A stretch of DNA of 64,000 bases, taken from Pseudisothecium myosuroides (Eukaryota; Streptophyta; Bryopsida; Hypnales; Lembophyllaceae). The translations under genes were made by a program, and so were the position numbers. Shown here piece by piece: positions 13,688 to 59,627 of the stretch. The notes beneath the pieces were generated by a model. It did not search any database. It worked only from the letters and a program-made list of their open reading frames with translations, and was not told where the DNA came from. Where the stretch lies: assembly GCA_951799445.1 (NCBI GenBank), contig OX637290.1, positions 28,452,987 to 28,516,986 on the forward strand, in the 5' to 3' direction. Every line of letters starts with the position of its first letter. Positions within the stretch are counted from its first letter, which is position 1.

Positions 13688-14977
13688 TGTGAGCTCCCAA
13701 TTTGTCACTTGGGACTCGTAGAATTATTTTTTTGGAAATTTGCAATTTAAAGTTGATAAAAGTATAGAAAAATCCATAAAAAGAGTGTAGAACCAAAATA
13801 GGGTTGTGTCATACCCATTATAGTATTTGGTCTAGATTTGTGTTTCTTACTTAGAATCCCCCAAACCTTGCCTAAAATAGTGTAGAAATAACGAAAAGGT
13901 TAGATTTGGAGGATTCGAGTCACACAGCCCCAAAAGGGCTAAATCCCACCATGAATGTGGCGATTCATGGCTAGGTCGGTTCGAAGGATCCACAGCGAGG
14001 CCACTAGGTCGGGTCCTAGAGTTAGATTTAGAATTCCCCATTAGATCGACGAATTCCCAAAATCCCGATTGTTAGCATGCAGGAGCCACTCACGCAAGAC
14101 CGGGCCCGTGGAGGAATCTACAGCCCAAGGATGGTGTTCTAGGGTGAATCCCATGCCAGGAGTCCAACGGCGAAATCGGTTTGCCAAGATTCCTCCACCT
14201 GCAGAAGATTCCCGCACCGTCGCTGATTCAAGGAGATGTCCAGTTTAAATCTCCATTGACCAATCGTGCCAGATATGGGAACACACCCGCACGTCTTTCA
14301 TGCAACTCCCTAAGAGGTCACGTGAAAAATCCCGGAATCTTCCGACTTGCAGAAGAACCTTTTTCCGGGTGGTCAACCCTCCTAACCTCCAACGGGAATT
14401 TCATAAAAATTACCCAGGTTACAATAAAATCTCACTAAAAATTAGACTATCTTGTTTTATGTTAATAATGCGCTCCGTGAAGTTTCACGACATTCCGATA
14501 GCGGCAAGTACCCGAACTGGCGAGATTCCTTGGGAATTAACCACGTGGCGGGGTCCCCGCCACGTTGACCGGCATTCCGGGACCATACGATGGCAAAACG
14601 AAGTCAACCAAAAGTCCTTCCCGACTCTCTCGCACCTACCGGAGACCCTAGGCTATTCACATTTCTCAAAATAGGAGACCCCCAAGATCTAGGATTTTAC
14701 CACAATTTGGTTTTTAAACTAAATTAGCCTACGATGGGTTTTTGGCCTCGGTACGGGGTGTAGGGGGATCTAGGACTAAACACGGCGTTCTGGATCCAAC
14801 GGCGCAATCCGTTCAACGATTGGAGCTAATCTCTAAAAGTTAGGATGTTGGTCCAGCATAGATGGTAGAAGTAGAAATTTAGGATGTAGGATGAAAATCT
14901 TTGAGGATGAGGATGAAAATCCCCGTTGATAAGGTTACCTTAGAGCTTTAGAGAGAGGGGTGAGCCCTTGGGAAACC

Positions 14978-14985
14978 TATATAAG
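14978..14985 (+). promoter_or_regulatory. LTR TATA box
   Basis: TATATAAG followed by GGGCCCCATTTCTCTCTC. The same sequence is kept in the 3' LTR (30698-30705) and in the other family LTRs in this window, as expected for a conserved LTR promoter. Transcription would start some 25-35 bases downstream, leaving a leader of about 2 kb before the exon at 17135. Confidence 0.75.
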
Positions 14986-15540
14986 GGCCCCATTTCTCTC
15001 TCTAAAACACCCCCTCACTTTTGTTTGGGTCCGTGGGTCCAATTTGCTTTGGATATTTTGGCGTTTGAAGCCAAAAACCTCTACGGTGTTTTTGGAGCAC
15101 TTTTTGCTCCGTTGTTGCTAGATTTCAAGCTTTGAAGGTCCTTAGGGGGTCCTTCTATCTTGCCTTGTGTACTTCTCGTGCGTTTGTTATACCTTTGTTA
15201 CGAGTTAAGAGTCCTCATCTCTCTCTTGTAGTTCCTTTGTGATCTAACTTGTGAGTTTAGGAGTCTTTTGGTGTCTTGTCCTAATCCTAAAGTCACCCCC
15301 CACCGTACCTTGGCGATGCCGCTTTGGGGGGCCTTTAGCTTGTGAAGTTGTGTATCTTTACGTGTCCTAACCGTGTTGTTTTCCTCACTTGTGTATTCTC
15401 ACCTTCCTCTAATACTCCCTTTGTTGTGTGGACCCCCCCTCGGGACGGCGAAGCTTTGGCTTTGTCAAGTGTGTTCTTTAACTTTGTCTTTCCTACCTTC
15501 TTCTAATACTCCCTTTGTTGTGTGGACCCCTCCTCGGGAC

Positions 15541-15560
15541 GGCGAAGCTTTGGCTTCGCC
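15541..15560. repeat. Hairpin GGCGAAGCTTTGGCTTCGCC in the LTR
   Basis: Perfect inverted repeat with 8-bp arms and a TTTG loop. Half-site relatives (ACGGCGAAGCTTTG, ACGGCGAAGCCTTG, ATGGCGAAGCCTTG) occur at about 15445, 15635, 15693, 15757 and 15961. The same series recurs in the 3' LTR (hairpin at 31261-31280) and, with changes, in the other LTR copies. Confidence 0.8.
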
Positions 15561-16129
15561 ACGTGTGTTCCTTATGTTTGTCTTTCCTACCTTTTTCTAA
15601 TACTCCCCTTGTTGTGTGGACCCCCCCTTGGAAACGGCGAAGCTTTGAACTAGTGACAAGTTGAAGTCCTAAAACATATGTTAAAAGTGTAGACGGCGAA
15701 GCCTTGAACCCCCGAGGTGTCAAAAAGTCCTAAAGTTGGTGTTAAAACCAACTTAACGGCGAAGCTTTGCACTTCCCCCGGGTTTTAGTTCCAAAGTCTA
15801 GTTTCCAAGACCTTTGTGGAAACCTCCAGAGTTTAGCTTCCAAGATATTAGAGTCTAGCATGAAGTAGGAAGTGGTGGGCCAAGTTTAGTTACCTAGCCT
15901 TGGTATACGTGGTTGCTAAGCCGAACGTCTTGCTTCACAACCTTGGGCCTAACCCCCGGATGGCGAAGCCTTGACTCCAAACACTAATTTTTCCAAAACT
16001 CCAATTTTTATTGGTTAAGTGGGTTCCCCTAAGGGAACCCGTTGGGGTGATTAAAAATTTTGTGGTGCCAACGGACCAGCCAACCAACGGACCAGCCAGC
16101 CCAGCGACTAGCCAGCCAGCGGACCAACC

Positions 16130-16228
16130 CAGCTGCAGTAACGGAGCCCAGCTGCAGTAACGGAGCCCAACTGCAGTAACGGAGCCCAGCTGCAGTAACG
16201 GAGCCCAACTGCAGTAACGGAGCCCAGC
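16130..16228. repeat. 19-bp tandem array in the 5' LTR (five units)
   Basis: Five units of GCTGCAGTAACGGAGCCCA with an A/G alternation. The 3' LTR has only three units (about 31850-31910), which accounts for almost all of the 37-bp length difference between the two LTRs. Confidence 0.9.
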
Positions 16229-17134
16229 GGCAGCCGGTACAGGGCCGGTAGACCAAGCCGGTACACTGCCTGTCTAGCGCCCCAAACTTGGCCGGTCTTG
16301 CGATTTGGTTGGACTGACCATGTCTCACATGCATCATGGCTGATTTTCAGACCACAACGGGATGATGCTCTACGGGGCCCCAACTTTGGTTTTTGTTTGA
16401 AAAAACTCTCCACTAATCAGGACCTAGTTTAGAAAATTAGTTATAGATCTAGTTTAGGAAATTAGTGATAACTCTAGTTTAGGAACCTAGTGATAACTCT
16501 AGTTTAGGAAGTCAGTAATAGATCTAGTTTAGGAAATCAGAGGTAGAGCTAGTTTAGAAAGCCAGTTAAACCCAATGGGGATCCAAGGCCAAAAATTCCA
16601 AAACTTCCAAGTTGTGACTAAAGAACAAAGGGAAGGGAAGGAAGAGAGTCAAACACCTCACATCACTCCTACACACATAATTGCACCCTCCACGTCACAC
16701 CTGCACGCACACTTGAAACCTCTATTCTAACCAACCAAATACACACATGAACAATGGAGGGAGATTAGGAAGAAGGAGATGAAGTAGAGAACAAAAAGGA
16801 GAGAGACGATAAATAGTAACCTAGGTCTAAGCCTAGGTAGACTTAAGGAGGGAAATCTTGAGAATTTGTGGTGACCGTTGGGAGGAGGATTAGGATGACA
16901 CAAAGGCAAATTGTGTAAGAGGGTAGGAAGAACATTTAAACCCTTCTCGTAGTTTGAAACCATAGTGTAAGACTCATAAAAGCTTAGGTGGAATAGTGCT
17001 AGTGTAGAAGAGAGGGGAAGAAAGAAAAGAAAAGGAGGAAGGGAAAGAGGGAGTTTAGATCATCAAAATTGTAATATTTTCTCAATAAGCGGTGAGCTTG
17101 GGAAAAATTCAAAAAAACAAACCCAAAGACTACC

Positions 17135-19610
17135 ATGGAGCGGGAGGATGTACACGTAGACGTGGACGAAGTCATTTCCGACACCGGTAGTGAAGAGGTG
17201 AGTTTTTGATTTAATTTTTGATGTTTCTCCCTAATTAGCATTTATTGCCCTAATCTGCCCTTAGAGCGTGATTAGCATCCGAGATTAGTGTAGATTAGAA
17301 GTTTAGATTCAAAAGTTGATAGATTAGGAATAGAGGTTTCCGAAAACATCTTATAATTAAGATTTGACCGTAAACTGACCGCATTAGGCTAAGTTAAGCG
17401 GTAGGGGGTAGAACGGGGGAATTTTAATTAAAAGTGAACCACAAGAAACAATGGACGGGAATTAGGATTAGATTAGAGGGAGGATTTAGGATTAAAATTA
17501 AAGATCAAATAGCAAGTTAAAAACCTAGGATTAAATTAAGATTTTAATTAGGGAAGTTAAAATTCAGAGGTCGAAAGTTGGAATTAAATTTAGGAGGATA
17601 ACATTTAGAGCTAATCTAGGATTAAAACGATAGGATTAAATTTGGAAGTAGAAGTCAAAAGTCAAAAGTCAAAAGTTTAGATTAAATTAAAAGGTTAAAT
17701 TTAGTCAATTGGGGAGTAAAAAGTGAGAGTGAAAAGCTAAAAGTAGAAGTTAAAAGTTAGAAGTAGAAGTAAAATTTTAGAGTTAGTAGAAAAATCTAGA
17801 GTCAAAGTGAAAACGTGGAGTCAAACCTAGAGGTTAAAATTGGGAATTAATTTTAGAAGTAAAAATTGAGAGTTAAAAGTCAAAAACCTAGAGTTAAATT
17901 AGGAGTAAAAATCTACAGTGAAAAGGGAAAATTTAGAGTTAACTTTAGAGGGTAAACCCTAGAGTAGTTTAGAAATAAGAACATAGAATTAGAGGTAAAA
18001 TTTAGAATAGAATAGAGGAGTAAAAACCTAGAGTTAAAAGTCGGTAGTTAGTATTTAAACCCAAGTTAAAAGAGTAAAAACCTAGAGTTTCATTTAGAGG
18101 GTGAAGATTAGAGTAAGAGTTAAACTTTAGAGTTAGTCTTTAGAGTAGAACTTCTAGGTGGAGTCTTAAAATCCCACGATAGTCTTAGAGGTTCATGGAA
18201 GGAACATAGGGGTTCCTCTTTTTACATAGTTAGGGACGTTAGAAATGACGCCAACTACCCAGTCTACCCTCGACATAGGATAGATAGTTAGAGAGTTAGA
18301 ATTTTACCGCTACCCCTGAGCATTGCAGCTACCTTGTGAGTTACTACATGCATTCTAATTATTCGCTGCCATCCACGACACTTAGGAACGTTAGCAAAAA
18401 AGATCCATTGCTTGGAAGGCACAGTGGACCGCGCTCACATCACCCCCATATATTAAAAATTGTGGATAAAGGCATAGAACCTAGTCGATGTTCCCTCTAT
18501 TACCAAGGGTGGGTAATCTTGCGCCCACAATTTCGGTGCGTCTGCCGGGAGTTGAAAACATTAGATTACATTTGCATGTTTGAATGACAAGTGGTGCATG
18601 TGAAGGGCTCTGAAGGGGACTCGGACTCGGGATCATCTGAGCCGTTTTCCGATACTAGGGGCCACTCCGACCTTGAGGTTTGGGCGTCTACTTTCCACGG
18701 CATCCCCCTCAAGGATTACTTTGACTTCAAACTTGGCCAGGGAGAAGAGGGTGTTGTCCAGATAATCTCGTTAGCAGATTTGGCAACCGGGCCAAGGGCG
18801 CTAAAAATATCCTTCGAATATTGGGCGCATCTTGTTCGCCTCTACCTACACGACCCGAATCAGCATACTCCAGAGATTGCCCACGCAATCGCAGCAGGGT
18901 CATTCGGGGTACCGTCACACAGTTTCCACAAGCACATTTGTTTCTATTGGCACCTAGTAGTCCACTTTTGGTTTTTCAAAAATCATTATGTGAGAGAGTG
19001 TTTTGGATCGCGACTTCCATCACATCAGCGGGACGCGCCCTTGCAAGAGCTGCCGCACATCGACATACGCTATAAGGCCCCAAAGCCCCTCTTTGACGGC
19101 CAGTTGTATCGATTCGACGCGTCAGACGTCGAAAACCTTCAGGTACCAGAGAATCCCTACACTTGTCTCCAACACTTCCGATCGTGGCACGACCGCGGTG
19201 GCCATCTCACCAAAGACGGGTGCAAGGGCATCTCGACCCGCTACGTACCCTTCCACGCCGCCACCGTGCACCAGCTGAGCTACATCGCCGAATATCACTC
19301 AGCTTGTGAGCCGTGCCAAGACACCGAAGATATCCGAGTGGCGCTTAATACAGCACCAGGGCTTGAAACTTTGCATCAGCCTCGATTTCACCCTCTCTTC
19401 TATCGGTACCCGTGCCGAGGAAAGAGAACACGCTTCGTCCGTATCAAGAACGCTACGTTCTTTACGAACGAAGCCTCTTGGACTCGCCACCAAGCGTCCA
19501 TCGACCGCATCGAGAGGGAACAGGCCCCTTACTTTTTCGAGTACCGGCCAACCGCTACAGAGATTGCAGCTAGCTTGGCCCTCTATGGGATAGATCTAGT
19601 ACCCGTCTAA
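17135..19610 (+). CDS. ORF1 of the retrotransposon, predicted spliced from an LTR exon; 355 aa
   Basis: Predicted join of 17135-17197 and 18606-19610. Exon 1 (21 codons) starts in a strong ACCATGG context inside the LTR, is acidic, ends ISDTGSEE and stops exactly at the donor GAG|GTGAGT. The downstream frame has no ATG anywhere; its only upstream codon choice after the TGA at 18585 is GTG. The AG at 18604-18605 is in phase with the donor and joins GSEE to GSEGDSDSGSSEP, continuing the acidic/Ser character. The 1408-base intron covers the LTR end and primer-binding site. The body has aromatic and His-rich segments (FHKHICFYWHLVVHFWFFKNHY) but no domain I recognise. Its position before gag matches the extra ORF1 of Ogre-type elements, whose role is unknown. 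Splicing is inferred, not observed. Confidence 0.65.
17198..17203 (+). promoter_or_regulatory. Consensus splice donor in the LTR
   Basis: GAG|GTGAGT, a near-perfect eukaryotic donor. It is preserved at the same codon boundary in the 3' LTR (32880), the solo LTR at 44135-48958 (donor at 47426) and the inverted solo LTR (58819 on the minus strand). Confidence 0.7.
18533..18553 (+). other. Primer-binding-site-like sequence
   Basis: Three bases after the LTR end comes TCGGTGCGTCTGCCGGGAG. Its complement reads like the 3' half of a tRNA (acceptor strand AGACGCACC preceded by a CCGGC T-stem), as in plant Ty3 elements primed by tRNA-Asp or tRNA-Arg. The first bases (TCGG rather than TGG) deviate from a perfect site, and the tRNA identity is not settled. 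Confidence 0.5.
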
Positions 19611-19728
19611 GATTTCCAGCTTGATTACGTATAGTGTGGATTTGATTTGGTATTTGTGTTGTATTGACTTACTATTTATATATATGCGTGGATTTGATTG
19701 GTGTATACCTCGACTCGCCTAGAGTTAG

Positions 19729-19884
19729 ATGCCACCAAAGTCTTCAAAATCCCCGAGACCCAAAAGGGTAGCACGACCGAGAGGCGGAGGCGGGAGTTCG
19801 TCTCGACTAACGCCACCAACATCCCCTACGGCATCTATCCGGGAAAACCTTAATTCGCCCGAACCTTTAATAAGGGTAGGCTGA
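19729..19884 (+). pseudogene. N-terminal Gag segment ending at an in-frame TGA
   Basis: ATG at 19729 opens a 51-codon frame (Lys/Arg/Pro/Ser-rich, start MPPKSSKSPRPKR) that stops at TGA 19882-19884 and is in the same phase as the Gag ORF. The frame is open again straight after the stop, with acidic coding-like sequence up to the next Met at 19960. This suggests that Gag originally started at 19729 and that the TGA is a later mutation or a readthrough codon. Confidence 0.55.
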
Positions 19885-19959
19885 CCGGGGAATATAGAAG
19901 AGGAAATCCACCTCCCCGAACCTGTCGAAAGAGTAAGTGCGTCGGACTCATCCGGGGAG

Positions 19960-22900
19960 ATGGACGGCCACAAGCCTCTTAGACCTCCTGCTCCGCTCAA
20001 CGCCGGCGATGTTCCGCCAGCAGCGCCCTTCGTACTAGACATCGATCCGATGATGCTACCAAGAAGATTGCCCATTGTGGTACCGGAAGGACTGCGGGAA
20101 GTACCTATCCCTCACAACCTACCCAGGTTTTCGGGGGAAAGGGACGATGATCCCACAGCCCACGTGGAAAGGTTCGAGGAAGCTCTCATATCCAGTCTGG
20201 TCACTAACCCTGGCTACTATTTGATTTGGTTCCCCAGCACGTTGGTAGGAGCAGCTTACTCATGGTATCGATCTCATGGTGAAGGTGTATTTACCATGTA
20301 CCAGCAACTTCAGACGGCCTTCCTCCGGAAGTTCCGACCGGCAACGGGGCAACAACATGCTCTGGCTGCCCTAGACCGGATCCGTAAGGACTTCACGGAG
20401 GATGTGACTTCCTACATCACGAGATTTCAAATGGTATGTACTCGTTTCGTGGGTAATCTACTCAACAACGACACGATTCAATACTACTTCATCAAGGGGA
20501 TTAACAACCCTCCACTCATCCGTGACATTCTGGCACGTAGGCCAGAAACTCTCGAGGACGCTGTCCGCGCAGCGTACGATGTCGAACTCATCGAAAAGGA
20601 AAACGATCGGATGGTACGGCAAGGGTTGGATCCCATCCCAGCTTTCATCCCGGTCCATAACCAAGGGATAAGTATGGGGCCGTACCACTCGACCACCCTC
20701 AAGGTAAATCCACTATCTACCCACGAACCCATGCTAATGCTAACCGCGCCTGTCGATGAGTTACGAACAGAGATGCGGCAAGCTTCGGGGGAGATGACAC
20801 GAGCGGTGCGTGAGCTGGCCGATCAAATGGCGTTTCTAGTTCGAGGACAAACCCCGCCAGCTTGCCCCAGATACCATGAGTCAGGTCAACACGCAACCAC
20901 CATGTGGTGCAACCATTGTGGCCAGAAAAATCACACGCCTCCCTTCTGTCCGCTGTTGAAGGACGATCCTCCACCACCACGACCGCGAGAGCCACAGCCG
21001 TATCGACATCCCAATGCCGCACGTCAGGGACGATCCAACCCCGCTGACGGATGTCCCGCTTGCAAGAGGCGACATGCTCCAGGCAACTGCTGGGCTCAAA
21101 ACAACATCAGGTGCGAACGTTGTGATGGCCCCCACCCCACGATCCGGTGTACAACGGCGGATAGAGTCATTCCATTGGAATTTCCTAAAGCAGACTACGC
21201 CAAGCAGGCACAGGACAACCAGAGAGGCGTCCGCTTTGCCGACCCTGTTGTGTCAACCGGACCACCAAATATGTACTATGACCATGCCAACAACAGACAG
21301 ACACAAAAATCCCCAGTGGCAGTCCAAACTGCCCAAGGTACCATTCCGTTGAACCCAGCCTTGCCCCCTCAAGTGACACAGGATGCGAGATTTGTGGCAG
21401 CCACCATGGCAGAGTCCTCTAGGGCTCATGAGTGTCATCGGAGTATGTACGTCGCGGTTGAACCCGAGGGAGTCAAGCCGGCGAAGGATACCTCACATCA
21501 AGAAGTGTTGCCCGCTCTCGTAGTCACGAGAGGAGGAGCACAAACGATCCCTCCTCCACTACCCGAGCCTGGAATTATAGATTCCCCTGACTCTAGTTCC
21601 CCTAGTGGCATTCCCCTGGAATCCTCTCAAGACTCCCCTCAGTTCTCTGACCTCCAAAGTACACTAAGGGACACGGCGAAGGAGGTACGCTCCCCCGAGA
21701 ATCTCCCCACTCGCACTGAGATGGACGAGAACGAATACCAATTCGTCCAGCAGGGAGATGCCTTCCCTCCCAGGGTTCTTCCCCATCGGCCTAAAGCCCG
21801 AAGAACTAACAACCCCTCCGGCCCCTATGACTTGTGGGGGGATTTGGCACACACCAAGGCAAACATTTCCTTTGGACAGCTGGTCAAGACCTCTCCCGCC
21901 TTACGTAAGCAGCTAAAGGAGGGGGCCACCATTCCCCGCGCTCCTAAGCTCGCCTCTGTTAACCGAGTTGCGTCCCAAGTCATCCCCGAAGAGCTGGAGT
22001 CTGACCTTGAAGAGTCTACCCCACTAGTCAAGACGTCCCGCAAGAACCTTCAAACCGCTTTGGAGAGCTTTGAAGCGGTGGAGATTGAGGTCGAAATAGT
22101 CGACAAAATCATCCCCCGAACCCTAGTAGATGACGGCAGCGGCGTCAACATCATGCCAGCCTATACCATGCGCAAGTTAGGCCTAGAGATTACGCACCCT
22201 TCTTGCGTGACCCTCAAATGCGCTGATCAGCGATCGATCAAGACCATTGGCCGAATCAAAGATCTCCGGATTCAGACCGGGGGAGTCGATTACATTGTCA
22301 CCTTTGAGGTCTTGCCACTCAACGAGGAGGCCACCAGTCCCTACCCATTACTCTTGGGTCGGGGGTTCCTTCGCCAATGTGGCGGTGTAGTGGACTGGGG
22401 GAAGACCCAACCCACCTTCACCTACGGGCCAACCGAGGCAAGGACGAAGATACCAATCGTCTCCAACGACCTAGCTCTACGGGGGCCCCAAGAGTTCGTA
22501 TACACCACCATCCAAACTATGCAGGCCTCGACAACCACTGACCTAGGTCAGATGAAATGCTTAGGCTTAGGTCTGTATGGGTTGGAAGACAATACGCCGT
22601 TCGAGGAATGGCTTCAAGAGCACCCCGATTCCAGCGAAGATGCGTTGGTCATCATCTGCACCTCCGCAGTTCAAAACGATCCAAGCACCGCACAAAGTAC
22701 AGCTATCGAAGTCTCCACTGATAGCTTGGATCCGGAGGACGAAGCCGAATTAGCTCCTACACCAGGATCCGATCGGAGAATGGTACCCAACCACGAGGTC
22801 AGGACGAAGGCCAACCACCACCTTGCAGACGATCACCGAGTCCGACACGTCCCACACCGAAGAGTTGCTCCACAGCCACCACGTTGGCTACAACTCGGTC

Positions 22901-23268
22901 CTGAGGGGACACGGACAGCCTTTACCGTCATGACTTCAGGTATCACTTTTCCCACCGACGCGGGCCGCTCCGAATCACATGTTCCCATTGCTCTGCACCT
23001 CCTAGACACCATTATTGCGACACGGGAGGAACATTGGTCGCCCCCAGCCACGGCCCCCACGTCATGGGCGAAGATCTACCTCCAACTCCAAACACGTCCG
23101 AGCCGATGCGTTGCCAACTCCAAGAGATTGAGGATGGTGACCCGCAACCAGGGAACTATCTCAGTGACGAGGACAACAGTCCTATTGCGATCCGCAATTT
23201 CCCATTCAACTGTCATCCTCCAGAGGGGTGGATTCCGGGAGTACATGGCGAATGGGGAGAAGTCCTAG
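19960..23268 (+). CDS. Retrotransposon Gag with retropepsin-like domain
   Basis: Open frame of 1102 codons. Residues ~55-215 are a retrotrans_gag-type capsid domain (FSGERDDDPTAHVERFEEAL, then GAAYSWYRS and FLRKFRP). Three zinc knuckles follow: CX2CX4HX4C at 317-330 (CNHCGQKNHTPPFC), and CX2CX3HX4C at 365-377 and 385-397. After a Pro/Ser-rich linker comes a FGQLVKTSPALRKQL block (~638-652), common before plant Ty3 proteases, and a retropepsin-like domain with LVDDGSGVNIMP at 722-733 (catalytic Asp in DDGSG) and LLLGRGFLRQ at 797-806. Coding character in this frame fades after about residue 930. No reverse transcriptase follows. Role: capsid formation and processing, here presumably without its own polymerase. 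Confidence 0.85.
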   Translation: MDGHKPLRPPAPLNAGDVPPAAPFVLDIDPMMLPRRLPIVVPEGLREVPIPHNLPRFSGERDDDPTAHVERFEEALISSLVTNPGYYLIWFPSTLVGAAYSWYRSHGEGVFTMYQQLQTAFLRKFRPATGQQHALAALDRIRKDFTEDVTSYITRFQMVCTRFVGNLLNNDTIQYYFIKGINNPPLIRDILARRPETLEDAVRAAYDVELIEKENDRMVRQGLDPIPAFIPVHNQGISMGPYHSTTLKVNPLSTHEPMLMLTAPVDELRTEMRQASGEMTRAVRELADQMAFLVRGQTPPACPRYHESGQHATTMWCNHCGQKNHTPPFCPLLKDDPPPPRPREPQPYRHPNAARQGRSNPADGCPACKRRHAPGNCWAQNNIRCERCDGPHPTIRCTTADRVIPLEFPKADYAKQAQDNQRGVRFADPVVSTGPPNMYYDHANNRQTQKSPVAVQTAQGTIPLNPALPPQVTQDARFVAATMAESSRAHECHRSMYVAVEPEGVKPAKDTSHQEVLPALVVTRGGAQTIPPPLPEPGIIDSPDSSSPSGIPLESSQDSPQFSDLQSTLRDTAKEVRSPENLPTRTEMDENEYQFVQQGDAFPPRVLPHRPKARRTNNPSGPYDLWGDLAHTKANISFGQLVKTSPALRKQLKEGATIPRAPKLASVNRVASQVIPEELESDLEESTPLVKTSRKNLQTALESFEAVEIEVEIVDKIIPRTLVDDGSGVNIMPAYTMRKLGLEITHPSCVTLKCADQRSIKTIGRIKDLRIQTGGVDYIVTFEVLPLNEEATSPYPLLLGRGFLRQCGGVVDWGKTQPTFTYGPTEARTKIPIVSNDLALRGPQEFVYTTIQTMQASTTTDLGQMKCLGLGLYGLEDNTPFEEWLQEHPDSSEDALVIICTSAVQNDPSTAQSTAIEVSTDSLDPEDEAELAPTPGSDRRMVPNHEVRTKANHHLADDHRVRHVPHRRVAPQPPRWLQLGPEGTRTAFTVMTSGITFPTDAGRSESHVPIALHLLDTIIATREEHWSPPATAPTSWAKIYLQLQTRPSRCVANSKRLRMVTRNQGTISVTRTTVLLRSAISHSTVILQRGGFREYMANGEKS

Positions 23269-29407: not shown

Positions 29408-32400
29408 TGTGAGCTCCCAATTTGTCACTTGGGACTCGTAGAATTATTTTTTTGGAAATTTGCAATTTAAAGTTGATAAAAGTATAGAAAAATCCATAAA
29501 AAGAGTGTAGAACCAAAATAGGGTTGTGTCATACCCATTATAGTATTTGGTCTAGATTTGTGTTTCTTACTTAGAATCCCCCAAACCTTGCCTAAAATAG
29601 TGTAGAAATAACGAAAAGGTTAGATTTGGAGGATTCGAGTCACACAGCCCCAAAAGGGCTAAATCCCACCATGAATGTGGCGATTCATGGCTAGGTCGGT
29701 TCGAAGGATCCACAGCGAGGCCACTAGGTCGGGTCCTAGAGTTAGATTTAGAATTCCCCATTAGATCGACGAATTCCCAAAATCCCGATTGTTAGCATGC
29801 AGGAGCCACTCACGCAAGACCGGGCCCGTGGAGGAATCTACAGCCCAAGGATGGTGTTCTAGGGTGAATCCCATGCCAGGAGTCCAACGGCGAAATCGGT
29901 TTGCCAAGATTCCTCCACCTGCAGAAGATTCCCGCACCGTCGCTAATTCAAAGAGATGTCCAGTTTAAATCTCCATTGACCAATCGTGCCAGATATGGGA
30001 ACACACCCGCACGTCTTTCATGCAACTCCCTAAGAGGTCACGTGAAAAATCCCGGAATCTTCCGACTTGCAGAAGAACCTTTTTCCGGGTGGTCAACCCT
30101 CCTAACCTCCAACGGGAATTTCATAAAAATTACCCAGGTTACAATAAAATCTCACTAAAAATTAGACTAGCTTGTTTTATGTTAATAATGCGCTCCGTGA
30201 AGTTTCACGACATTCCGATAGCGGCAAGTACCCGAACTGGCGAGATTCCTTGGGAATTAACCACGTGGCGGGGTCCCCGCCACGTTGACCGGCATTCCGG
30301 GACCATACGATGGCAAAACGAAGTCAACCAAAAGTCCTTCCCGACTCTCTCGCACCTACCGGAGATCCTAGGCTATTCACATTTCTCAAAATAGGAGACC
30401 CCCAAGATCTAGGATTTTACCACGATTTGGTTTTTAAACTAAATTAGCCTACGATGGGTTTTTGGCCTCGGTACGGGGTGTAGGGGGATCTAGGACTAAA
30501 CACGGCGTTCTGGATCCAACGGCGCAATCCGTTCAACGATTGGAGCTAATCTCTAAAAGTTAGGATGTTGGTCCAGCATAGATGGTAGAAGTAGAAATTT
30601 AGGATGTAGGATGAAAATCTTTGAGGATGAGGATGAAAATCCCCGTTGATAAGGTTACCTTAGAGCTTTAGAGAGAGGGGTGAGCCCTTGGGAAACCTAT
30701 ATAAGGGCCCCATTTCTCTCTCTAAAACACCCCCTCACTTTTGTTTGGGTCCGTGGGTCCAATTTGCTTTGGATATTTTGGCGTTTGAAGCCAAAAACCT
30801 CTACGGTGTTTTTGGAGCACTTTTTGCTCCGTTGTTGCTAGATTTCAAGCTTTGAAGGTCCTTAGGGGGTCCTTCTATCTTGCCTTGTGTACTTCTCGTG
30901 CGTTTGTTATACCTTTGTTACGAGTTAAGAGTCCTCATCTCTCTCTTGTAGTTCCTTTGTGATCTAACTTGTGAGTTTAGGAGTCTTTTGGTGTCTTGTC
31001 CTAATCCTAAAGTCACCCCCCACCGTACCTTGGCGATGCCGCTTTGGGGGGCCTTTAGCTTGTGAAGTTGTGTGTCTTTACGTGTCCTAACCGTGTTGTT
31101 TTCCTCACTTGTGTATTCTCACCTTCCTCTAATACTCCCTTTGTTGTGTGGACCCCCCCTCGGGACGGCGAAGCTTTGGCTTTGTCAAGTGTGTTCTTTA
31201 ACTTTGTCTTTCCTACCTTCTTCTAATACTCCCTTTGTTGTGTGGACCCCTCCTCGGGACGGCGAAGCTTTGGCTTCGCCACGTGTGTTCCTTATGTTTG
31301 TCTTTCCTACCTTTTTCTAATACTCCCCTTGTTGTGTGGACCCCCCCTTGGAAACGGCGAAGCTTTGAACTAGTGACAAGTTGAAGTCCTAAAACATATG
31401 TTAAAAGTGTAGACGGCGAAGCCTTGAACCCCCGAGGTGTCAAAAAGTCCTAAAGTTGGTGTTAAAACCAACTTAACGGCGAAGCTTTGCACTTCCCCCG
31501 GGTTTTAGTTCCAAAGTCTAGTTTCCAAGACCTTTGTGGAAACCTCCAGAGTTTAGCTTCCAAGATATTAGAGTCTAGCATGAAGTAGGAAGTGGTGGGC
31601 CAAGTTTAGTTACCTAGCCTTGGTATACGTGGTTGCTAAGCCGAACGTCTTGCTTCACAACCTTGGGCCTAACCCCCGGATGGCGAAGCCTTGACTCCAA
31701 ACACTAATTTTTCCAAAACTCCAATTTTTATTGGTTAAGTGGGTTCCCCTAAGGGAACCCGTTGGGGTGATTAAAAATTTTGTGGTGCCAACGGACCAGT
31801 CAACCAACGGACCAGCCAGCCCAGCGACTAGCCAGCCAGCGGACCAACCCAGCTGCAGTAACGGAGCCCAGCTGCAGTAACGGAGCCCAACTGCAGTAAC
31901 GGAGCCCAGCGGCAGCCGGTACAGGGCCGGTAGACCAAGCCGGTACACTGCCTGTCTAGCGCCCCAAACTTGGCCGGTCTTGCGATTTGGTTGGACTGAC
32001 CATGTCTCACATGCATCATGGCTGATTTTCAGACCACAACGGGATGATGCTCTACGGGGCCCCAACTTTGGTTTTTGTTTGAAAAAACTCTCCACTAATC
32101 AGGACCTAGTTTAGAAAATTAGTTATAGATCTAGTTTAGGAAATTAGTGATAACTCTAGTTTAGGAACCTAGTGATAACTCTAGTTTAGGAAGTCAGTAA
32201 TAGATCTAGTTTAGGAAATCAGAGGTAGAGCTAGTTTAGAAAGCCAGTTAAACCCAATGGGGATCCAAGGCCAAAAATTCCAAAACTTCCAAGTTGTGAC
32301 TAAAGAACAAAGGGAAGGGAAGGAAGAGAGTCAAACACCTCACATCACTCCTACACACATAATTGCACCCTCCACGTCACACCTGCACGCACACTTGAAA

Positions 32401-34212
32401 CCTCTATTCTAACCAACCAAATACACACATGAACAATGGAGGGAGATTAGGAAGAAGGAGATGAAGTAGAGAACAAAAAGGAGAGAGACGATAAATAGTA
32501 ACCTAGGTCTAAGCCTAGGTAGACTTAAGGAGGGAAATCTTGAGAATTTGTGGTGACCGTTGGGAGGAGGATTAGGATGACACAAAGGCAAATTGTGTAA
32601 GAGGGTAGGAAGAACATTTAAACCCTTCTCGTAGTTTGAAACCATAGTGTAAGACTCATAAAAGCTTAGGTGGAATAGTGCTAGTGTAGAAGAGAGGGGA
32701 AGAAAGAAAAGAAAAGGAGGAAGGGAAAGAGGGAGTTTAGATCATCAAAATTGTAATATTTTCTCAATAAGCGGTGAGCTTGGGAAAAATTCAAAAAAAC
32801 AAACCCAAAGACTACCATGGAGCGGGAGGATGTACACGTAGACGTGGACGAAGTCATTTCCGACACCGGTAGTGAAGAGGTGAGTTTTTGATTTAATTTT
32901 TGATGTTTCTCCCTAATTAGCATTTATTGCCCTAATCTGCCCTTAGAGCGTGATTAGCATCCGAGATTAGTGTAGATTAGAAGTTTAGATTCAAAAGTTG
33001 ATAGATTAGGAATAGAGGTTTCCGAAAACATCTTATAATTAAGATTTGACCGTAAACTGACCGCATTAGGCTAAGTTAAGCGGTAGGGGGTAGAACGGGG
33101 GAATTTTAATTAAAAGTGAACCACAAGAAACAATGGACGGGAATTAGGATTAGATTAGAGGGAGGATTTAGGATTAAAATTAAAGATCAAATAGCAAGTT
33201 AAAAACCTAGGATTAAATTAAGATTTTAATTAGGGAAGTTAAAATTCAGAGGTCGAAAGTTGGAATTAAATTTAGGAGGATAACATTTAGAGCTAATCTA
33301 GGATTAAAACGATAGGATTAAATTTGGAAGTAGAAGTCAAAAGTCAAAAGTCAAAAGTTTAGATTAAATTAAAAGGTTAAATTTAGTCAATTGGGGAGTA
33401 AAAAGTGAGAGTGAAAAGCTAAAAGTAGAAGTTAAAAGTTAGAAGTAGAAGTAAAATTTTAGAGTTAGTAGAAAAATCTAGAGTCAAAGTGAAAACGTGG
33501 AGTCAAACCTAGAGGTTAAAATTGGGAATTAATTTTAGAAGTAAAAATTGAGAGTTAAAAGTCAAAAACCTAGAGTTAAATTAGGAGTAAAAATCTACAG
33601 TGAAAAGGGAAAATTTAGAGTTAACTTTAGAGGGTAAACCCTAGAGTAGTTTAGAAATAAGAACATAGAATTAGAGGTAAAATTTAGAATAGAATAGAGG
33701 AGTAAAAACCTAGAGTTAAAAGTCGGTAGTTAGTATTTAAACCCAAGTTAAAAGAGTAAAAACCTAGAGTTTCATTTAGAGGGTGAAGATTAGAGTAAGA
33801 GTTAAACTTTAGAGTTAGTCTTTAGAGTAGAACTTCTAGGTGGAGTCTTAAAATCCCACGATAGTCTTAGAGGTTCATGGAAGGAACATAGGGGTTCCTC
33901 TTTTTACATAGTTAGGGACGTTAGAAATGACGCCAACTACCCAGTCTACCCTCGACATAGGATAGATAGTTAGAGAGTTAGAATTTTACCGCTACCCCTG
34001 AGCATTGCAGTTACCTTGTGAGTTACTACATGCATTCTAATTATTCGCTGCCATCCACGACACTTAGGAAACGTTAGCAAAAAAGATCCATTGCTTGGAA
34101 GGCACAGTGGACCGCGCTCACATCACCCCCATATATTAAAAAATGTGGATAAAGGCATAGAACCTGGTCGGTGTTCGCTCTATTACCAAGGGTGGGTAAT
34201 CTTGCGCCCACA
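29408..34212 (+). repeat. 3' LTR, 4805 bp
   Basis: Direct copy of 13688-18529 with three instead of five 19-bp units near 31850-31910 and about a dozen point differences. It keeps the TATA box (30698-30705), the GGCGAAGC hairpin (31261-31280) and the leader exon with donor (32817-32879). It is followed by CCTTT (34213-34217) and then the CACTA transposase frame. Transcripts from this LTR could carry the exon and donor into sequence downstream. Confidence 0.95.
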
Positions 34213-44134: not shown

Positions 44135-47100
44135 TGTGAGCTCCCAATTTGTCACTTGGGACCCGTAGAATTATTTTTTTGGAAATTTGCAATTTAAAGT
44201 TGATAAAAGTATAGAAAAATCCATAAAAAGAGTGTAGAACCGAAATAGAATTGTGTCATACCCATTATAGTATTTGGTCTAGATTTGTGTTTCTTACTTA
44301 GAATCCCCCAAACCTTGCCTAAAAATAATATAGAAATAACGAAAAGGTTAGATTTGGAGGATTCGAGTCATCCAGTCCCAAAAGGGCTAAATCCCACCAT
44401 GAATGTGGCGATTCATGGCTAGGTCGGTCCGAAGGATCCACAGCGAGGCCACTAGGTCGGGTCCTAGAGTTAGATTTAGAATTCCCCATTAGATCGACGA
44501 ATTCCCGAAATCCCGATTGTTAGCATGCAGGAGCCACTCACGCTAGACCGGGCCCATGGAGGAATCTACAGCCCAAGGATGGTGTTCTAGGGTGAATCCC
44601 ATGCCAAGAGTTCAACGGCGAAATCGGTTCGCCAAGATTCCTCCACCTGCAGAAGATTCCCGCACCGTCGCTAATTCAAAGAGATGTCCAGTTTAAATCT
44701 CCATTGACCAATCGTGCCAAGTATGGAAACACACCCGCACGTCTTTTATGCGACTCCCTGAGAGATCACGTGAAAAATCTTGGCATCTTCCGACTTGCAG
44801 AAGAACCTTTTTTCGAGTGGTCAACCCTCCTAACCTCCAACGGGAATTTCATGGAAATTACCCAGGTTACAATAAAATCTCACTAAAAATTAGACTAGCT
44901 TGTTTTATGTTAATAATGCGCTCCGTGAAGTTTCACGACATTCCGATAGCGGCAAGTACCCGAACCGGCAAGCTTCCTCGGGAATTAACCACGTGGCGGG
45001 GTCCCCGCCGCGTTGACCGGCATTCCGGGACCATACGATGGCGAAACGAAGTCAACCAAAAGTCCTTCCCGACTCTCTCGCACCTACCGGAGACCCTAGG
45101 CTATTCACATTTCTCAAAATAGGAGACCCCCAAGATCTAAGATTTTACCACGATTTGGTTTTTAAACTAAATTAGCCTACGATGGATTTTTGGCCTCGGT
45201 ACGGGGTGTGTAGGGGATCTAGGACTAAACACGGCGATCTGGATCCAACGGCGCAATCCGTTTGGCGATTGGAGCTAATCTCCAAAAGTTAGGATGTTGG
45301 TCCAGCATAGATGGTCGAAGTAGAAATTTAGGATGTAGGATGGAAATCTTTGAGGATGAAGATGAAAATCCCTGTTGATAAGGTTACCTTAAAGCTTTAG
45401 AGAGAGGGGTGAGCCCTTGGGAAACCTATATAAGGGCCCCATTTCTCTCTCTAAAACACCCCCTCACTTTTGTTTGGGTCCGTGGGTCCAATTTGCTTTG
45501 GATATTTTGGCGTTTGAAGCCAAAAACCTCTACGGTGTTTTTGGAGCACTTTTTGCTCCGTTGTTGCTAGATTTCAAGCTTTGAAGGTCCTTAGGGGGTC
45601 CTTCTATCTTGCCTTGTGTACTTCTCGTGTGTTTGTTATATCCTTGTTACGAGTTAAGAGTCTTTGTTCTCTCTTGTTGTACCTTTGTGAGCTAACTTGT
45701 GAGTTTAGGAGTCTTTTGGGTCGTGTCCTAATCCTAAAGTCACCCCCCACCGTACCTTGGCGATGCCGCTTTGGGGGGCCTTTAGCTTGTGAAGTTGTGT
45801 GTATTTACGTGTACTAAAACGTGTGTTTTTCCTCACTTATGTGTCCTCACCCTCTTCTAATCTTTCCCTTGTTGCGTGGACCCCTCCTCGGGACGGCGAA
45901 GCTTTGGCTTTGTCACACGTGTGTCTAAGTTTGTCTTTTCTATCTTCTTCTAATCTTTCCCTTGTTGCGTGGACCCCCCCTCGGGACGGCGAAGCTTTGG
46001 CTTTGTCACACGTGTGTCTAAGTTTGTCTTTTCTATCTTCTTCTAATATCCCCTTTGTTGCGTGGACCCCTCAAAGCGACGGCGAAGCTTTGAACTAGTA
46101 ACAACGTCAAGTCCTACAGTGTGTGTTAAAATACTCTTAGACGGCGGAGCTTTGAACCCGTGGAGTATCACAAGTCCTAAAGTTGGTGTTAAACCCAATT
46201 TTACGGCGAAGCTTTGAACCTCCATAGCCTTAGATTCCAAAGTCTAGTTTCCAAGACCTTTGTGGAAACGTCCAGAGTTTAGCTTCCAAGAGATGTAGGT
46301 TCCTTTGCACTTATCAAGTGTAGTTTCTTCCAAAGTTTTATTTAGTTTAGTTGTTTCCCACGGTCTTAGTGAGTTTAGTACCCCCGAGGTTTTATTTCCC
46401 CCTAACCTTAGCCAGCAAACCAGCCTTAAAATAGCTTTAGCAAAAATTCAGCCTTAATATAGCCTTAGCAAAAAACCAGATCCGAAGCCAGCATCCGAAA
46501 CCATCATCCCAACCAGCATTTCAACCAGCATCCCATCAGAAATCAAAAGTTCCGTGTTCTTTTAAAAAAAAAAAGATTTAAATCCCGACCCCCCCAGCCA
46601 GCCAGCCGGAAAGGGCCAGGCAGGCTCCGGTTGGACAGAGGCTCTCGGTTGGACAGAGGCTCCCCGTTTGGACAGAGGCTCTCGGTTGGAACAGAGGCTC
46701 TCGGTTGGGACAGTAGGCTCCGGTTGGGACAGCAGGCTCTCCGTGGGCAACCGGGGCTCCTCCCAAATTTTGATTCCTTTTTTTTTTTTTCCTTGTTTGT
46801 TTCACATTTTGGTTCTCTCAAACCAGAACACAAACAAAGATAAAGCAAACTAAAGGAATGTTGGACTAATTAAGTGCTAAGCAAGGGTGAAGTAGAATTA
46901 GGGCCAATAAAAATACGAAAGGGAGGAGGAAGAAGAGAGCGGAGCACCACCGTACCTGCACACGAAATCGGGTTCTATCACCACTCACACCTACACACAA
47001 TGGAAGGAAATTAGGGAGAAGGATGTGTTATAGGAGTGGAAAGGAGAGAGACGATGAATAGTGCCTAGCTAGGAGATTAGGTAGGAAATCTAGAAGAACT

Positions 47101-48958
47101 CCTTGCAACCGTTGGGAGGAAGATTAGGATGACACAAAGCAAGGTTGCGTAAGAGGGTAGGAAGAACATTTAAACCCTTCTTGTAGTTTGAAACCATAGT
47201 GTAAGACCATAAAAGCTTAGGTGGAATAGTACTAGAGTAAAAGGAGAGAGGAAGAAAGAAAAGAAGGGAGAAGAAGAAAGAAAGAGTTTAGATCATCAAA
47301 AATTGTAATATTTTCTAAATAAGCGGTGAGCTTGGAAAATCAAACAAAAACCAAAGATTACCATGGAGCATGAGGATGTACACGTGGACGTGGACGAAGT
47401 TATTTCCAAAATCGGTAGTGAAGAGGTGAGTTTTTGATTTAATCTTTTATGTTTCTCCCTAATTAGCACTTATTTTCCTAATCAGCCCTTAGAGCGTGAT
47501 TAGCATCCGAGATTAGTGTAAATTAGAAGTTTAGATTCAAAAGTTGATAGATTAGGAATAGAGGTTTCCGAAAACATCTTATAATTAAGATTCGACCGTA
47601 AATTGACCGCGTTAGGCTAAGTTAAGCGGTAGGGGGTAGGATGGAAGAATTTTGAATAAAAATCATCCAAAAAGAATCATGGACGGACCTTAGGGGTTTA
47701 AATTAGAAAGAGAATTTAAGATTAAAATTAGGGATTAATTAGCGGTTAGAATTAGAATCAATTTACATTTTATTTCTTAAAACTAAAATTCTAAGGTGAA
47801 AATCTAGAGTTAACTTTGGGAAGTTAGAAAGTAGAATTAATTTGGAAGTTTAACTTAGGGGGTCAAAATTTCCAGTGAAACCTTAGGGTAGTTAGAAAAG
47901 GAAGTTAGAGTTGATTAGGGAGTCAAAAATTAGAGTAGAAAGTAGAGGTCAACAATAGAATTGAAAATTAACTTAGGAAGTAGATTTTTGAGTTAGGAAT
48001 AGAGTAAAAAGTAGAGGTCAAAACTTGGAGTAGCATTTAGAGTTCATCTAGGATTAAAACGATAGGATTAAAGTTGGAAGTAGAAAGTCAAAAGTTAAGA
48101 TTAAATTTAAAGGTTAAACTTTAGAATCAATTGGGGAGTAAAAAGTTAGAGTAAAAAGCTAAAAGTAGAAGTTAAAAGTTAGAGGTAGAAGTTAAAGTTA
48201 GAATTAGTTGTTGGAAGTAGAAGAAAATCTAGAGTCAAAGTGAAAATGTAGAGTCAAACATAGAGCTAAAATTCAAGGGTAGAGTTTAGAGTTAATTTAG
48301 GAGTAAAACCTTAGAGTTAAAAGTTAAAGCCTAGAGTTAAAATTCAAGGATAAATCTTAGAGTTAATTTAGGAGTAAAAACTTAGAGTTAAAAGTTAAAA
48401 CATAGAGTTAAAATTCAAGGGTAAATCTTAGAGTTAATTTAGGAATAGAAACCTAGAGTCAAAAGTCAAAACATTGAGCACAAGTCGGTAGTTAATATTT
48501 AAAGATCAAGTTAAAGAAGTAAAATCTAGAGTTACATTCCGAAGTTGGAACCTTAGGGATAGCTTTTAAAAGGAGAACTTCTAGGTGGAGTCTTAGAAAC
48601 CCAAAGATAGTCTTAGGGGTTCATGGAAGGAACATAGGGGTTCCCCCTTTTACGTAGTTAGGGATGTTATAAATGACGCCAACTACTCAGTCGACCCTCG
48701 ACATAGGATAGATAGTTAGGGAGTTAGGATTTCACCATCACTCTGAACATCGCAGTTAACTTGTGAGTTACTACATGCATTACTAATTATTCGCTGCCAT
48801 CCACGACACTTAGGAAACGTTAGCAAAAAAGATCCATTGCTTGGAAGGCACAGTGGACCGCGCTCACATCACCCCCATATATTAAAAAATGTGGATAAAG
48901 GCATAGAACCTGGTCGGTGTTCGCTTTATTACCAAGGGTGGGTAATCTAGCGCCCACA
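44135..48958 (+). mobile_element. Solo LTR of the retrotransposon family, 4824 bp
   Basis: Full-length LTR (TGTGAGC...GCGCCCACA) flanked by CCGAG on both sides, with no internal sequence: the product expected from recombination between two LTRs of one element. It is visibly more diverged from the LTR pair at 13.7/29.4 kb than those are from each other. It keeps the TATA box (about 45425), the GGCGAAGC motifs, and the leader exon 47363-47425 with GTGAGT at 47426. At 46600-46750 it has an 18-bp GGACAGAGGCTCTCGGTT-type array where LTR 13688-18529 has a different module. It interrupts the MULE-like gene. Confidence 0.95.
47363..47425 (+). other. Leader exon in the solo LTR
   Basis: Same 63-bp frame as 17135-17197, again in ACCATGG context and ending GAG|GTGAGT. 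It differs by several substitutions, including amino-acid changes, but no indel or stop. Confidence 0.7.
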
Positions 48959-56566: not shown

Positions 56567-57692
56567 TGTGGGCGCTAGATTACCCACCCTTGGTAATAAA
56601 GCGAACACCGACCAGGTTCTATGCCTTTATCCACTTTTTTACTATATAGGGGTGTTGTGAGCGCGGTCCACTGTGCCTTCCAAGCAATGGATCTTTTTTG
56701 CTAACGTTTCTTATGTGTCGTGGATGGCAGCGAATAATTAGAATGCATGTAGTGACTCACAAGTTAACTGCAATGCTCAAAGTGTTGGTGAAATGCTAAC
56801 TCCCTAATTATCTATCCTATGTCGAGGGTAGACTGGGTAGTTGGTGTCATTTCTAACGTCCCTAACTACGTAAAAAGGGGAACCCCTATGTTCCTTCCAT
56901 GGACCTCTAAGACTATCTGGGGTTTCTAAGACTCCACTTAGAAGTTCTACGTCTAAAAACTATCCCTAAGCTCCAACTTCTGAATGTAACTCTAGATTTT
57001 ACTTCTTTAACTTGATTCTAGATATTAACTACCAACTTCTATTCTATGTTTTGACTTTTGACTCTGGGTTTTACTTCTAAATCAACTTTAACTCTTAACT
57101 TCCAAGTTTTAACCTTCTAGGGTAATTCTAAATTTCACTTTTAATTCTATGTTTTTACTTCTAAACTACTCTAAGATTTACCCTCTACATATAACTCTAG
57201 GTTTTTGACTTTTAACTCTAAGTTTTTACTTCTAAAATTAATCTCAAATTTAACCTCTAGGTTTGACTCTATGTTTTCACTTTGACTCTAGACTTTCTCT
57301 ACTTCCAACAACTAACTCTAAAATTTAACTTCTACCTCTAACTTTTAACTTCTACTTTCAGCTTTTCACTCTAACTTTTTACTCCCCAATTGACTCTAAA
57401 ATTTAATTTTTAAATTTAATCTTAACTTTTGACTTTTGACTTTTGACTTTCTTCTTCCAATTTTCATCCTATCGTTTTAATCCTAGATTAACTCTAAATG
57501 TTACTCCAAGTTTTACTTCTAAATTTTGCTCTAGCTTTTGACCTCTAACATTCACTCTAATTCCGAATTTCTAACTTCAAGATCTAACTCCTATTTCTAC
57601 TCGTAATTTCTACCTCCTAAATTTAGTCTAAAGTTTTTACTTTTAATTTCTACGTCTTACTCGGATTTCTTTTTACTCCTAATTAACCCTAA

Positions 57693-58334
57693 CGGGCAAA
57701 TGCATGGTTGAGTGGCTCAATCTCTTGTCACACTCTTGAAAACTGCAAACAACTCATTTTCAAATTGATCTATAGGTCACTTAAATTTATTTTTTTCTAT
57801 GAAACAACTTGATTTAGGTAAATTAACTTGATGTCCAATAGTTCTATGATTTTTTATTTTTTTTTGTATATAGTATGTGAGTGCTAGGGACTTTTGAAAA
57901 AAAGTGGGTGTGACAGATCTGTTATCAACAAAATTAAAAAGGACTTTTTAAACTCCTTTGACTTAACCAAATGAATTGTACGTACTACGTTTCTAATAGA
58001 GTTTAAACTTATATTTTTAGAAACCAATGGCTTATAATGTAGATCTTCTTTACATGTTTGCTAGGGACTTTTTAACGACTTTTTAAACACTGAATTTTAC
58101 GAAGTCCTTTTCTTTTAGCCAATATTTTTTTTCCAAAAATTATTTTCTTATAGTGTAATAATTTTCAAGGTCTAGGGGTGCCCAAAAACCTAGGTATTTT
58201 TAGATTTTTAAAAAAATTTGTTTCTTATAGAATTCACTCCCAAGCATTTCACTCTCAAACATTTTACTCACAAAAAAGGACTTTTTGGACTTGGACTTTT
58301 GCCAAAAATGAGCCACTCAACCATGCATCCACCC
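57693..58334. mobile_element. MITE, about 640 bp, in the solo LTR
   Basis: Perfect 20-bp inverted repeats ATGCATGGTTGAGTGGCTCA (57700-57719) and its complement (58309-58328), with GGGC../..CCACCC outside them. TAA flanks both ends (57690-57692 and 58335-58337), and the surrounding LTR sequence joins up with the 47.9-kb LTR when the insert is removed. The 3-bp TAA duplication fits PIF/Harbinger (Tourist-like) elements. No transposase. Confidence 0.85.
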
Positions 58335-58819
58335 TAATTTCCTTTTCTAAACTACCCTAAGGTTTCACTGGAAATTTTAACCCCCTAAGTTAAACTTCCA
58401 AATTAATTCTACTTTCTAACTTCCCAAAGTTAACTCTAGATTTTGACCTTAGAATTTTAACGTTAAGAAATAAAAATGTAAATTGACTCTAATTCTAACC
58501 GCTAATTAATCCCTAATTTTAATCCTAAATTATCTTCCTAATCTAAACTCCTAAGTTTCGTCCATGGTATTCTTTGGATGAAATTTTACTCAAAATTCCT
58601 CCGTCCTACCTCCTATCGCTAAACTTAGCCTAACACGGTCGATTTAAAGCCAAATCCTAAGTGTAATATGTTTTTGGAAACCTCTATCCCTAATCTATAA
58701 CCTTTTGAATCTAAACTTCTAATTTGCACTAATCTCGGATGCTAATCACGCTCTAAGGGCTGATTAGGAAAATAAATGCTAATTAGGGAGAAACATCAAA
58801 GATTAACTCAAAAACTCAC

Positions 58820-58882
58820 CTCTTCACTACCGGTTTCGGAAATCACTTCGTCCACGTCCACGTGTACATCCTCATGCTCCAT
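58820..58882 (-). other. Leader exon in the inverted solo LTR
   Basis: 63-bp frame in ATG context with Met, Glu, His at the start and GSEE at the end, abutting GTGAGT. Same length and frame as at 17135-17197, 32817-32879 and 47363-47425. Confidence 0.7.
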
Positions 58883-59524
58883 GGTGGTACTTTGTTTTTG
58901 TTTGATTTTCCAAGCTCACCACTTAAATTGAGGAAATATTACACCCTTTGCAATCTAACTTCTTTCTTTCCCTTTCTCCTTTCTTTTCTTTCTTCCTCTC
59001 TCCTTTCTTTTCTTTCTTCCTCTCTCCTTCTACACTAGTACTATTCCACCTAAGCTTTTATGAGTCTTACACTATGGTCTCAAATTCCAAGGAGGGTTTT
59101 AAGATGCCAACTATCCTCTTACACAATTTTGCCTTTGTGTCATCCTAATCCTCCTCTCAACGGTCACCACAAATTCCCAAGATTTCTTCCTAAAGCCTAA
59201 CCCTAGGTCACTATTTATCGTCTCTCACCTCTCTTGCCTACTTCTTCTCCTCCTTCCTAATCTCCTTCCATTGTGTTTTAGGCGTGAGTGGTGAGAGGAA
59301 ACAATTTTGTGTGCAGGTACGGTGGTGCTCCACTCTCTTCTTCTTCCTCCCTTTTATATTATTTGGCCCTAATCCTACTTCAACCCCCACTTAGCACGAA
59401 ATTAGTCCAATATGCTTTTGGTTTGGTTTGTCTTTGTTTGTGTTCTGATTTGAGAAAACCACAATTAAAAAAAAAAAAAAAGAATCAAAAATTGGGGAGG
59501 AGCCCGAGTGGCCCCAACCTCCCC

Positions 59525-59592: not shown

Positions 59593-59627
59593 GGCCTTCC
59601 GGTTGGCTGGCTAGGGGGTCGGCACAA

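Follow-up and report, generated by a model that had tools for sequence, protein, structure and literature searches.

A candidate coding exon inside a plant LTR that may supply the start codon of an extra ORF before gag

How one retrotransposon RNA doubles as message and genome is an open question, and element E1 raises it within the 64-kb window (the whole stretch of DNA analysed here). The frame lying between its 5′ LTR and gag, ORF1, has no ATG, and a short frame that opens with an ATG and ends at a potential splice donor is situated inside the LTR. A sequence-only reading had proposed that ORF1 is made from a spliced mRNA beginning with this LTR exon, and the proposal is supported by in-phase exons at 29 of 43 related loci and by a codon-position pattern in the exon. 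The DNA carries the exon with its coding pattern, a stop, a branch-point-like motif, an in-phase AG and a depletion of ATG; from these features we infer splicing and, with it, separate pools of protein-coding and genomic RNA. That the LTR exon is spliced in phase to ORF1 we consider highly probable.

If this is correct, the intron would hold the primer-binding site and the first exon would lie in the LTR, so that the choice between message and genome would be settled at splicing. The extra ORF before gag would also gain a start codon and a route of expression. Gene finders that expect the ATG within the internal region would then wrongly score such ORFs as broken.

Element E1 and the exon inside its LTRs

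The relevant features of the window are the following.

13688-34212, plus strand: element E1, with paired LTRs and a 5-bp target duplication CCTTT at 13683-13687 and 34213-34217
13688..18529, plus strand: 5′ LTR of E1, 4842 bp, ends TGTGAGCTCCC...GCGCCCACA
16809..16815, plus strand: TATA-like ATAAATA, a possible promoter by its motif only
17135..17197, plus strand: candidate LTR coding exon, 21 codons, ACCATGG context, phase-0 donor GAG/GTGAGT
17198..18605, plus strand: putative intron of 1408 nt that includes the LTR end and the primer-binding site
17207..17209, plus strand: in-frame stop at intron codon 4, which would close a frame of 24 codons on unspliced RNA
18534..18551, plus strand: primer-binding site, recognised by sequence, one letter off TGGTGCGTCTGCCGGGAG
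18606..19610, plus strand: ORF1, putative second exon, 334 codons, no Met, ATG depleted in all frames
19684..19722, plus strand: 12-codon mini-ORF, found at the same place and with the same length in two other families that have a gag-like frame
19729..23268, plus strand: gag-protease frame, beginning MPPKSSKSP
29408..34212, plus strand: 3′ LTR of E1, 4805 bp
32817..32879, plus strand: exon copy in the 3′ LTR of E1, identical to the 5′ LTR exon
44135..48958, plus strand: solo LTR, target duplication CCGAG, exon at 47363-47425
56567..62654, minus strand: solo LTR, target duplication GGGCC, exon at 58820-58882

E1 has the structure of an LTR retrotransposon, with paired LTRs, TG...CA ends, a target duplication and a primer-binding site. 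Among 4804 aligned positions its LTRs show 12 substitutions, in addition to gaps of 1 and 38, and this small difference together with the target duplication marks E1 as a recent insertion. It encodes a Ty3/gypsy-type Gag (PF03732, Retrotrans_gag, E 3.9e-9, above its cut-off), with a Ty3_capsid match just below its cut-off (1.6e-6) and a weak protease match in gag-pro (0.0061, below cut-off). The 21 plus-strand ORFs of at least 60 codons that follow gag-pro gave no Pfam match to reverse transcriptase (RT), RNase H or integrase. E1 thus does not present these enzymes in the gypsy order expected of an autonomous Ty3/gypsy element and, because they are unrecognised after gag-pro, it looks non-autonomous. 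There is no obvious polypurine tract directly 5′ of the 3′ LTR (29381-29407), though E1 is young and has a target duplication.

Reading positions 17135-17197 (MEREDVHVDVDEVISDTGSEE, then GTGAGT) confirmed that an ACCATGG start, 21 open codons and the donor GAG/GTGAGT lie inside the LTR. The absence of an in-frame ATG from ORF1 also held, the 334 codons of the window copy (18606-19610) containing no Met, and the AG ending at 18605 does join ORF1 in phase with the LTR exon. Further in-phase AGs near the start of ORF1 end at 18551, 18641 and 18677; the ORF1 frame is open only from 18588, i.e. downstream of the first of these. The RNA of E1 would start about 30 nt downstream of the ATAAATA motif.

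The exon had been noted in four LTR copies of the window. All four are in frame and free of indels and stops, but two of them are the LTRs of E1 itself, so that they represent three independent insertions and not four. A degenerate pattern built from the copies matches at 17132, 32814, 47360 (with one mismatch) and 58885 on the minus strand; the same pattern had no match in 100 shuffles.

The window holds other repeats. A truncated LTR copy (38661-41034, minus strand) terminates at CACTACAAGAAAA, which we take to be the end of a CACTA-like transposon. It shares 98.9% identity, in inverted orientation, with positions 44135-46507 of the solo LTR 3 kb away. At 35842-37854 there are ORFs carrying DUF4218 and DUF4216, two domains commonly found in CACTA transposons. 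The minus-strand solo LTR contains tandem repeats in 16-bp steps (59628-60125).

Recurrence of the exon and the pattern of change in its codons

A search of the same genome with ORF1 gave 122 matches of 38-100% identity, with 120 of 190 candidates scored. For 43 of the 122 matches the 5′ side was fetched, the selection being made by ORF1 and not by the exon; these loci were chosen for diversity and intactness, the last four as second copies. Exons were sought as an ATG followed by open codons and an AG/GT in phase 0. A complete upstream exon was found in 29 of the 43 loci (13/19, 12/20 and 4/4 by batch), which span window-like ORF1s (88-98% identical) as well as distant ones (43-59%). Most exons are 21 codons long, the others 16, 17 or 24. 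They fall into seven types, four of them present in more than one locus and three on one copy each:

MEREDV and MEHEDA: related forms
MAEGGN: L050 and L053
MAND: L065, L088 and L089
MMEDEG: L059 and L086
MDQVEE: L049, one copy
MDFVNQ: L055, one copy
MADQEY: L087, one copy

A phase-0 candidate running from an ATG to a donor occurs in 30 of the 43 loci, against 6.6 expected from order-1 simulated sequence. Two of these 30, L056 and L060, are probably due to chance, and the exon of L054 was missed in this count because its donor is GTT. The reverse strand gave candidates in 5 of 43 loci and phase 1 in none of the 43, while phase 2 gave 21 candidates in 20 loci, 19 of which use the phase-0 donor. 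Since phase 0 and AG/GT are part of the search rule, they count as independent findings only against these phase-1, phase-2 and reverse-strand controls.

In the fetched 5′ stretches of the remaining 14 loci no complete exon was present. L072 and L076 are cut off by the limits of the stretch, partial exon similarity is seen in L056, L057 and L078, and L048, L052, L060, L062, L069, L074, L075, L081 and L085 show no trace of an exon in what was fetched. In L048 and L081 this absence coincides with foreign frames that resemble, by eye, a DDE transposase and a LINE reverse transcriptase. The MEREDV and MEHEDA forms occur with each of three ORF1 types (window-like, L047-like and L051-like), in all six combinations; such free pairing would be harmless because a common phase-0 intron would permit exchange. 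By eye, the exon peptide is absent from all eight protein-database relatives of ORF1 (P0004-P0011).

The LTR exon was predicted to show coding constraint, and such constraint is seen by codon position, not in overall divergence. In 22 exon copies (18 distinct; 20 with ORF1, including the window, plus the two solo LTRs), from which the non-alignable exon types were left out, pN was 0.105 and pS 0.416, a pN/pS of 0.25 with zero indels. Pairwise diversity at the three codon positions was 0.089/0.092/0.287, and a pattern of this kind is absent from six intron windows. Third positions are variable at 15 of 21 sites and the other positions at 14 of 42 (Fisher p 0.007, a guide only because the copies share ancestry). 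The expectation that the exon decays more slowly than the neighbouring LTR failed, the mean pairwise difference being 0.156 in the exon versus 0.114 in the next 243 alignment columns. A separate rate comparison on 38 copies was set aside because these had been chosen by exon similarity.

The putative intron, ORF1 and the approach to gag

The letters following the donor GT vary among 30 exon copies (GTGAGT, GTGGGT, GTAAGC, GTATTC, GTATGT, GTAAAT and others). An in-frame stop past the donor is present in all 30, at codon 4 in 28 and at codon 3 in the two copies of one exon type. An acceptor could be placed in 24 loci, the AG being chosen for being in phase, which gives introns of 794-1720 nt. 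YTRAY lies 22-28 nt upstream of the acceptor in 22 of these 24 loci, the exceptions being the window copy and L049; on letter frequencies, roughly one such 35-nt stretch in four would contain the motif anyway, and the loci share descent. The acceptor of the window copy is weak, with 35% pyrimidine upstream and no YTRAY. In L059 and L086 the acceptor is T-rich and follows ACTAAC. No acceptor was placed in L058, where a stop closes the ORF1 frame, and exon-bearing L064, whose ORF1 contains two stops, lacks an in-phase AG where the acceptor usually stands. The expected AG is visible by eye in L058, L086, L087 and L089, and L072 also has an AG at the acceptor site.

A primer-binding site lies between the exon and ORF1 in 21 of the 29 exon-bearing loci, in 16 of them as the exact 18 letters TGGTGCGTCTGCCGGGAG; given this position, splicing would remove it. 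An intron-less junction of the window-type exon and ORF1, the only pattern searched, was found neither in the genome at up to 3 mismatches nor in 94 loci at 0 mismatches. This result is neutral because a spliced RNA would lack the primer-binding site, and it fits no splicing equally well.

The sequence of ORF1 points to purifying selection, with dN/dS values of 0.13, 0.19, 0.44 and 0.26 in four within-family pairs. Pfam gave no domain for it, including those named for Ogre, Retand or Athila extra ORFs. A predicted fold for eight sequences (mean pLDDT 52) was set aside. In the families of L091 and L094 the 411-461 nt that follow ORF1 contain no recognised gag-like frame, yet ORF1 itself persists. 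It may work on its own coding RNA, or non-autonomous elements may require it.

Across the 20 loci whose matched ORF1 reaches 700 nt or more (L054, being shorter, was dropped), Met accounts for 12 of 6080 codons (0.20%), against 2.3% in the gag-pro of E1. The depletion extends to the other frames, in which these loci have 71 ATGs versus 133.5 expected (sd 8.3; lowest of 300 shuffles, 108). ORF1 of E1 itself has 2 off-frame ATGs versus 8.1 expected from synonymous shuffles, with none of 1000 as low (P 0.002 of 500), while its gag-pro, taken as a control, has 31 versus 24.7. Taken locus by locus, all 21 loci lie below their own mean, 10 of them at P < 0.05, the loci being related; L049 is only mildly depleted (13 versus 16.9). 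GTG and TTG are not depleted overall. A depletion of CTG was set aside, as it holds in part of the families and could reflect methylated-CHG decay. The ATG depletion suggests that ribosomes might traverse ORF1 by scanning until they reach gag, as they do in tungro and badnaviruses, and we would put such scanning at about even odds. It provides an independent, testable prediction on how gag is reached.

The gap between ORF1 and gag (19611-19728) is A/T-rich and contains TATATATA and the mini-ORF, which reads MRGFDWCIPRLA in E1, MCGFVWCESRLR in L092 and MIGLDLCESEIH in L093 (gag in the latter two being recognised by eye) and which ends 0-7 letters before the gag ATG. In the three families that were read and have a gag-like frame, an AG stands directly before this ATG (TTAG, ATAG, TTAG), in the phase of the exon and behind an A/T-rich tract. 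As the mini-ORF and the in-phase AG are kept in three families, a second acceptor before gag is also possible. Besides an acceptor region, the stretch could represent an internal promoter or a device for scanning. The gag frame of E1 has an in-frame stop at 19882-19884, where L037 and L090 are open.

Readings of the LTR frame and its relation to known systems

We propose that a transcript starting upstream in the 5′ LTR would be spliced from GAG/GT in the LTR to the AG just past the primer-binding site. The LTR ATG and 16-24 codons would thereby be joined in phase to ORF1, which itself lacks a usable start, and the spliced RNA would yield the ORF1 protein. Unspliced RNA would retain the LTR end and the primer-binding site and go into reverse transcription. 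Ribosomes starting on it at the exon ATG would halt a few codons past the donor, and the stop there suggests that the exon ATG also serves as a short upstream ORF on this RNA. Ribosomes missing the exon ATG might scan on to the gag ATG, which would be possible because ORF1 is nearly ATG-free. In this old lineage the LTR intron might even act as a switch for the whole life cycle. Unspliced RNA would be nearly silent in translation owing to its short frame and would be reverse-transcribed, while spliced RNA, which could not be primed, would make both ORF1 and Gag (the latter by scanning or through a second in-phase acceptor); the shared phase-0 intron would also let LTRs and ORF1s recombine freely. 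We see somewhat less than an even chance for this wider scheme.

Alternatively, the LTR frame could be no more than a conserved upstream ORF, some 24 codons long, through which translation on the unspliced RNA is adjusted, for example by ribosome shunting, with ORF1 starting at a non-AUG codon after the primer-binding site. Leader ORFs in plant pararetroviruses do tune translation by shunting. Splicing alone would not need the conserved in-frame stop past the donor, and the ORF1 frame is open for six codons before the acceptor AG, with GTG codons there. In the available passages of PMC5902531, rice tungro bacilliform virus (RTBV) begins one of its ORFs at AUU after a shunt. However, this explanation does not account for a GT that is fixed amid changing neighbours, for YTRAY, or for an AG beside the first conserved ORF1 codons, and we hold it to be very unlikely. 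The two roles are also compatible, the RTBV leader ORF doing both in the same portion of that source (PMC5902531).

In another scenario the same donor would join an acceptor just before gag, producing Gag with an LTR peptide as well as or instead of ORF1. The in-phase AG directly before the gag ATG in three families, with its A/T-rich tract upstream, speaks for such a junction. However, purifying selection on ORF1 extends to L091 and L094, in which no gag-like frame is recognised, and ATG depletion would be needless in an ORF1 that is skipped. This scenario appears unlikely, and the gag-joined product may simply come in addition to spliced ORF1, not in its place. The exon might finally be an ORF that happens to end at a GT in a decaying repeat and was copied along with the LTR. 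Copies of an LTR family do share descent, so the repeats in the window are not independent, and the two LTR exons of E1 are identical. However, such chance is already disfavoured, and indeed scarcely credible, in view of the excess over simulation, reverse strand and phase 1, the codon-position pattern of the exon and the recurrence of dissimilar exon sequences in diverged families.

An exon in the LTR spliced to ORF1 has partial parallels among plant elements. OTA elements have very long LTRs, large size and commonly extra ORFs, and in Ogre the GAG-PROT frame is apart from RT-RH-INT, with splicing documented between them, protease and RT, as far as the consulted part of PMC6317226 goes. OTA/Tat elements (Ogre, Retand) resemble E1, which has long LTRs and an extra ORF between the 5′ LTR and gag. 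OTA/Tat elements are otherwise recognised by RT/RH/INT phylogeny and an additional RNase H domain; E1 has no recognisable RT, and its likeness to them lies in the LTRs and the extra ORF. The Ogre intron lies between protease and RT whereas the putative intron of E1 begins in the LTR, and the Ogre account, to the extent available, has no LTR coding exon. In BARE1 and EVADE splicing yields a translated RNA distinct from the genomic RNA, according to the parts of PMC3735527 and PMC12786077 at hand. Their introns, as presented there, lie within or just after gag and the start codon is not in the LTR, in contrast to the exon start described here.

Coding sequence in an LTR also occurs elsewhere: HBZ has its start codon in an LTR exon and TYA of yeast Ty1 begins within the LTR. 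Retroviral leader donors precede gag. In the accessible sections of PMC12313066, HBZ of HTLV-1 comes from a spliced antisense transcript of the 3′ LTR, and in those of PMC3059260 the polyprotein of CRM group A extends into the 3′ LTR. None of these (HBZ, retroviral leader donors, Ty1 TYA, CRM) is a sense-strand plant LTR exon that feeds an extra ORF before gag. Searches of an open-licence library brought up no coding exon in any plant LTR, a result whose partial coverage does not establish absence from print.

A further parallel to the proposed splicing is RTBV, in which a leader ORF is fused by splicing to a distant ORF and in which, as in badnaviruses, long ORFs without internal AUG let ribosomes scan on (PMC5902531, from the passages available). 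E1 likewise has an upstream ORF depleted of internal AUG, and its DNA anatomy and selection fit a possible splicing of the RTBV kind, in which a leader start codon would be joined in phase to a distant ORF. In RTBV, so far as that portion describes it, splicing serves ORF IV, which follows the polyprotein, and translation of the AUG-free ORFs takes place on unspliced RNA, whereas in E1 the AUG-poor ORF would itself be the spliced product. E1 is also, unlike RTBV, an integrated element with LTRs. The Caulimoviridae genome has no LTRs, and the paired LTRs and target duplication of E1 place it outside this family.
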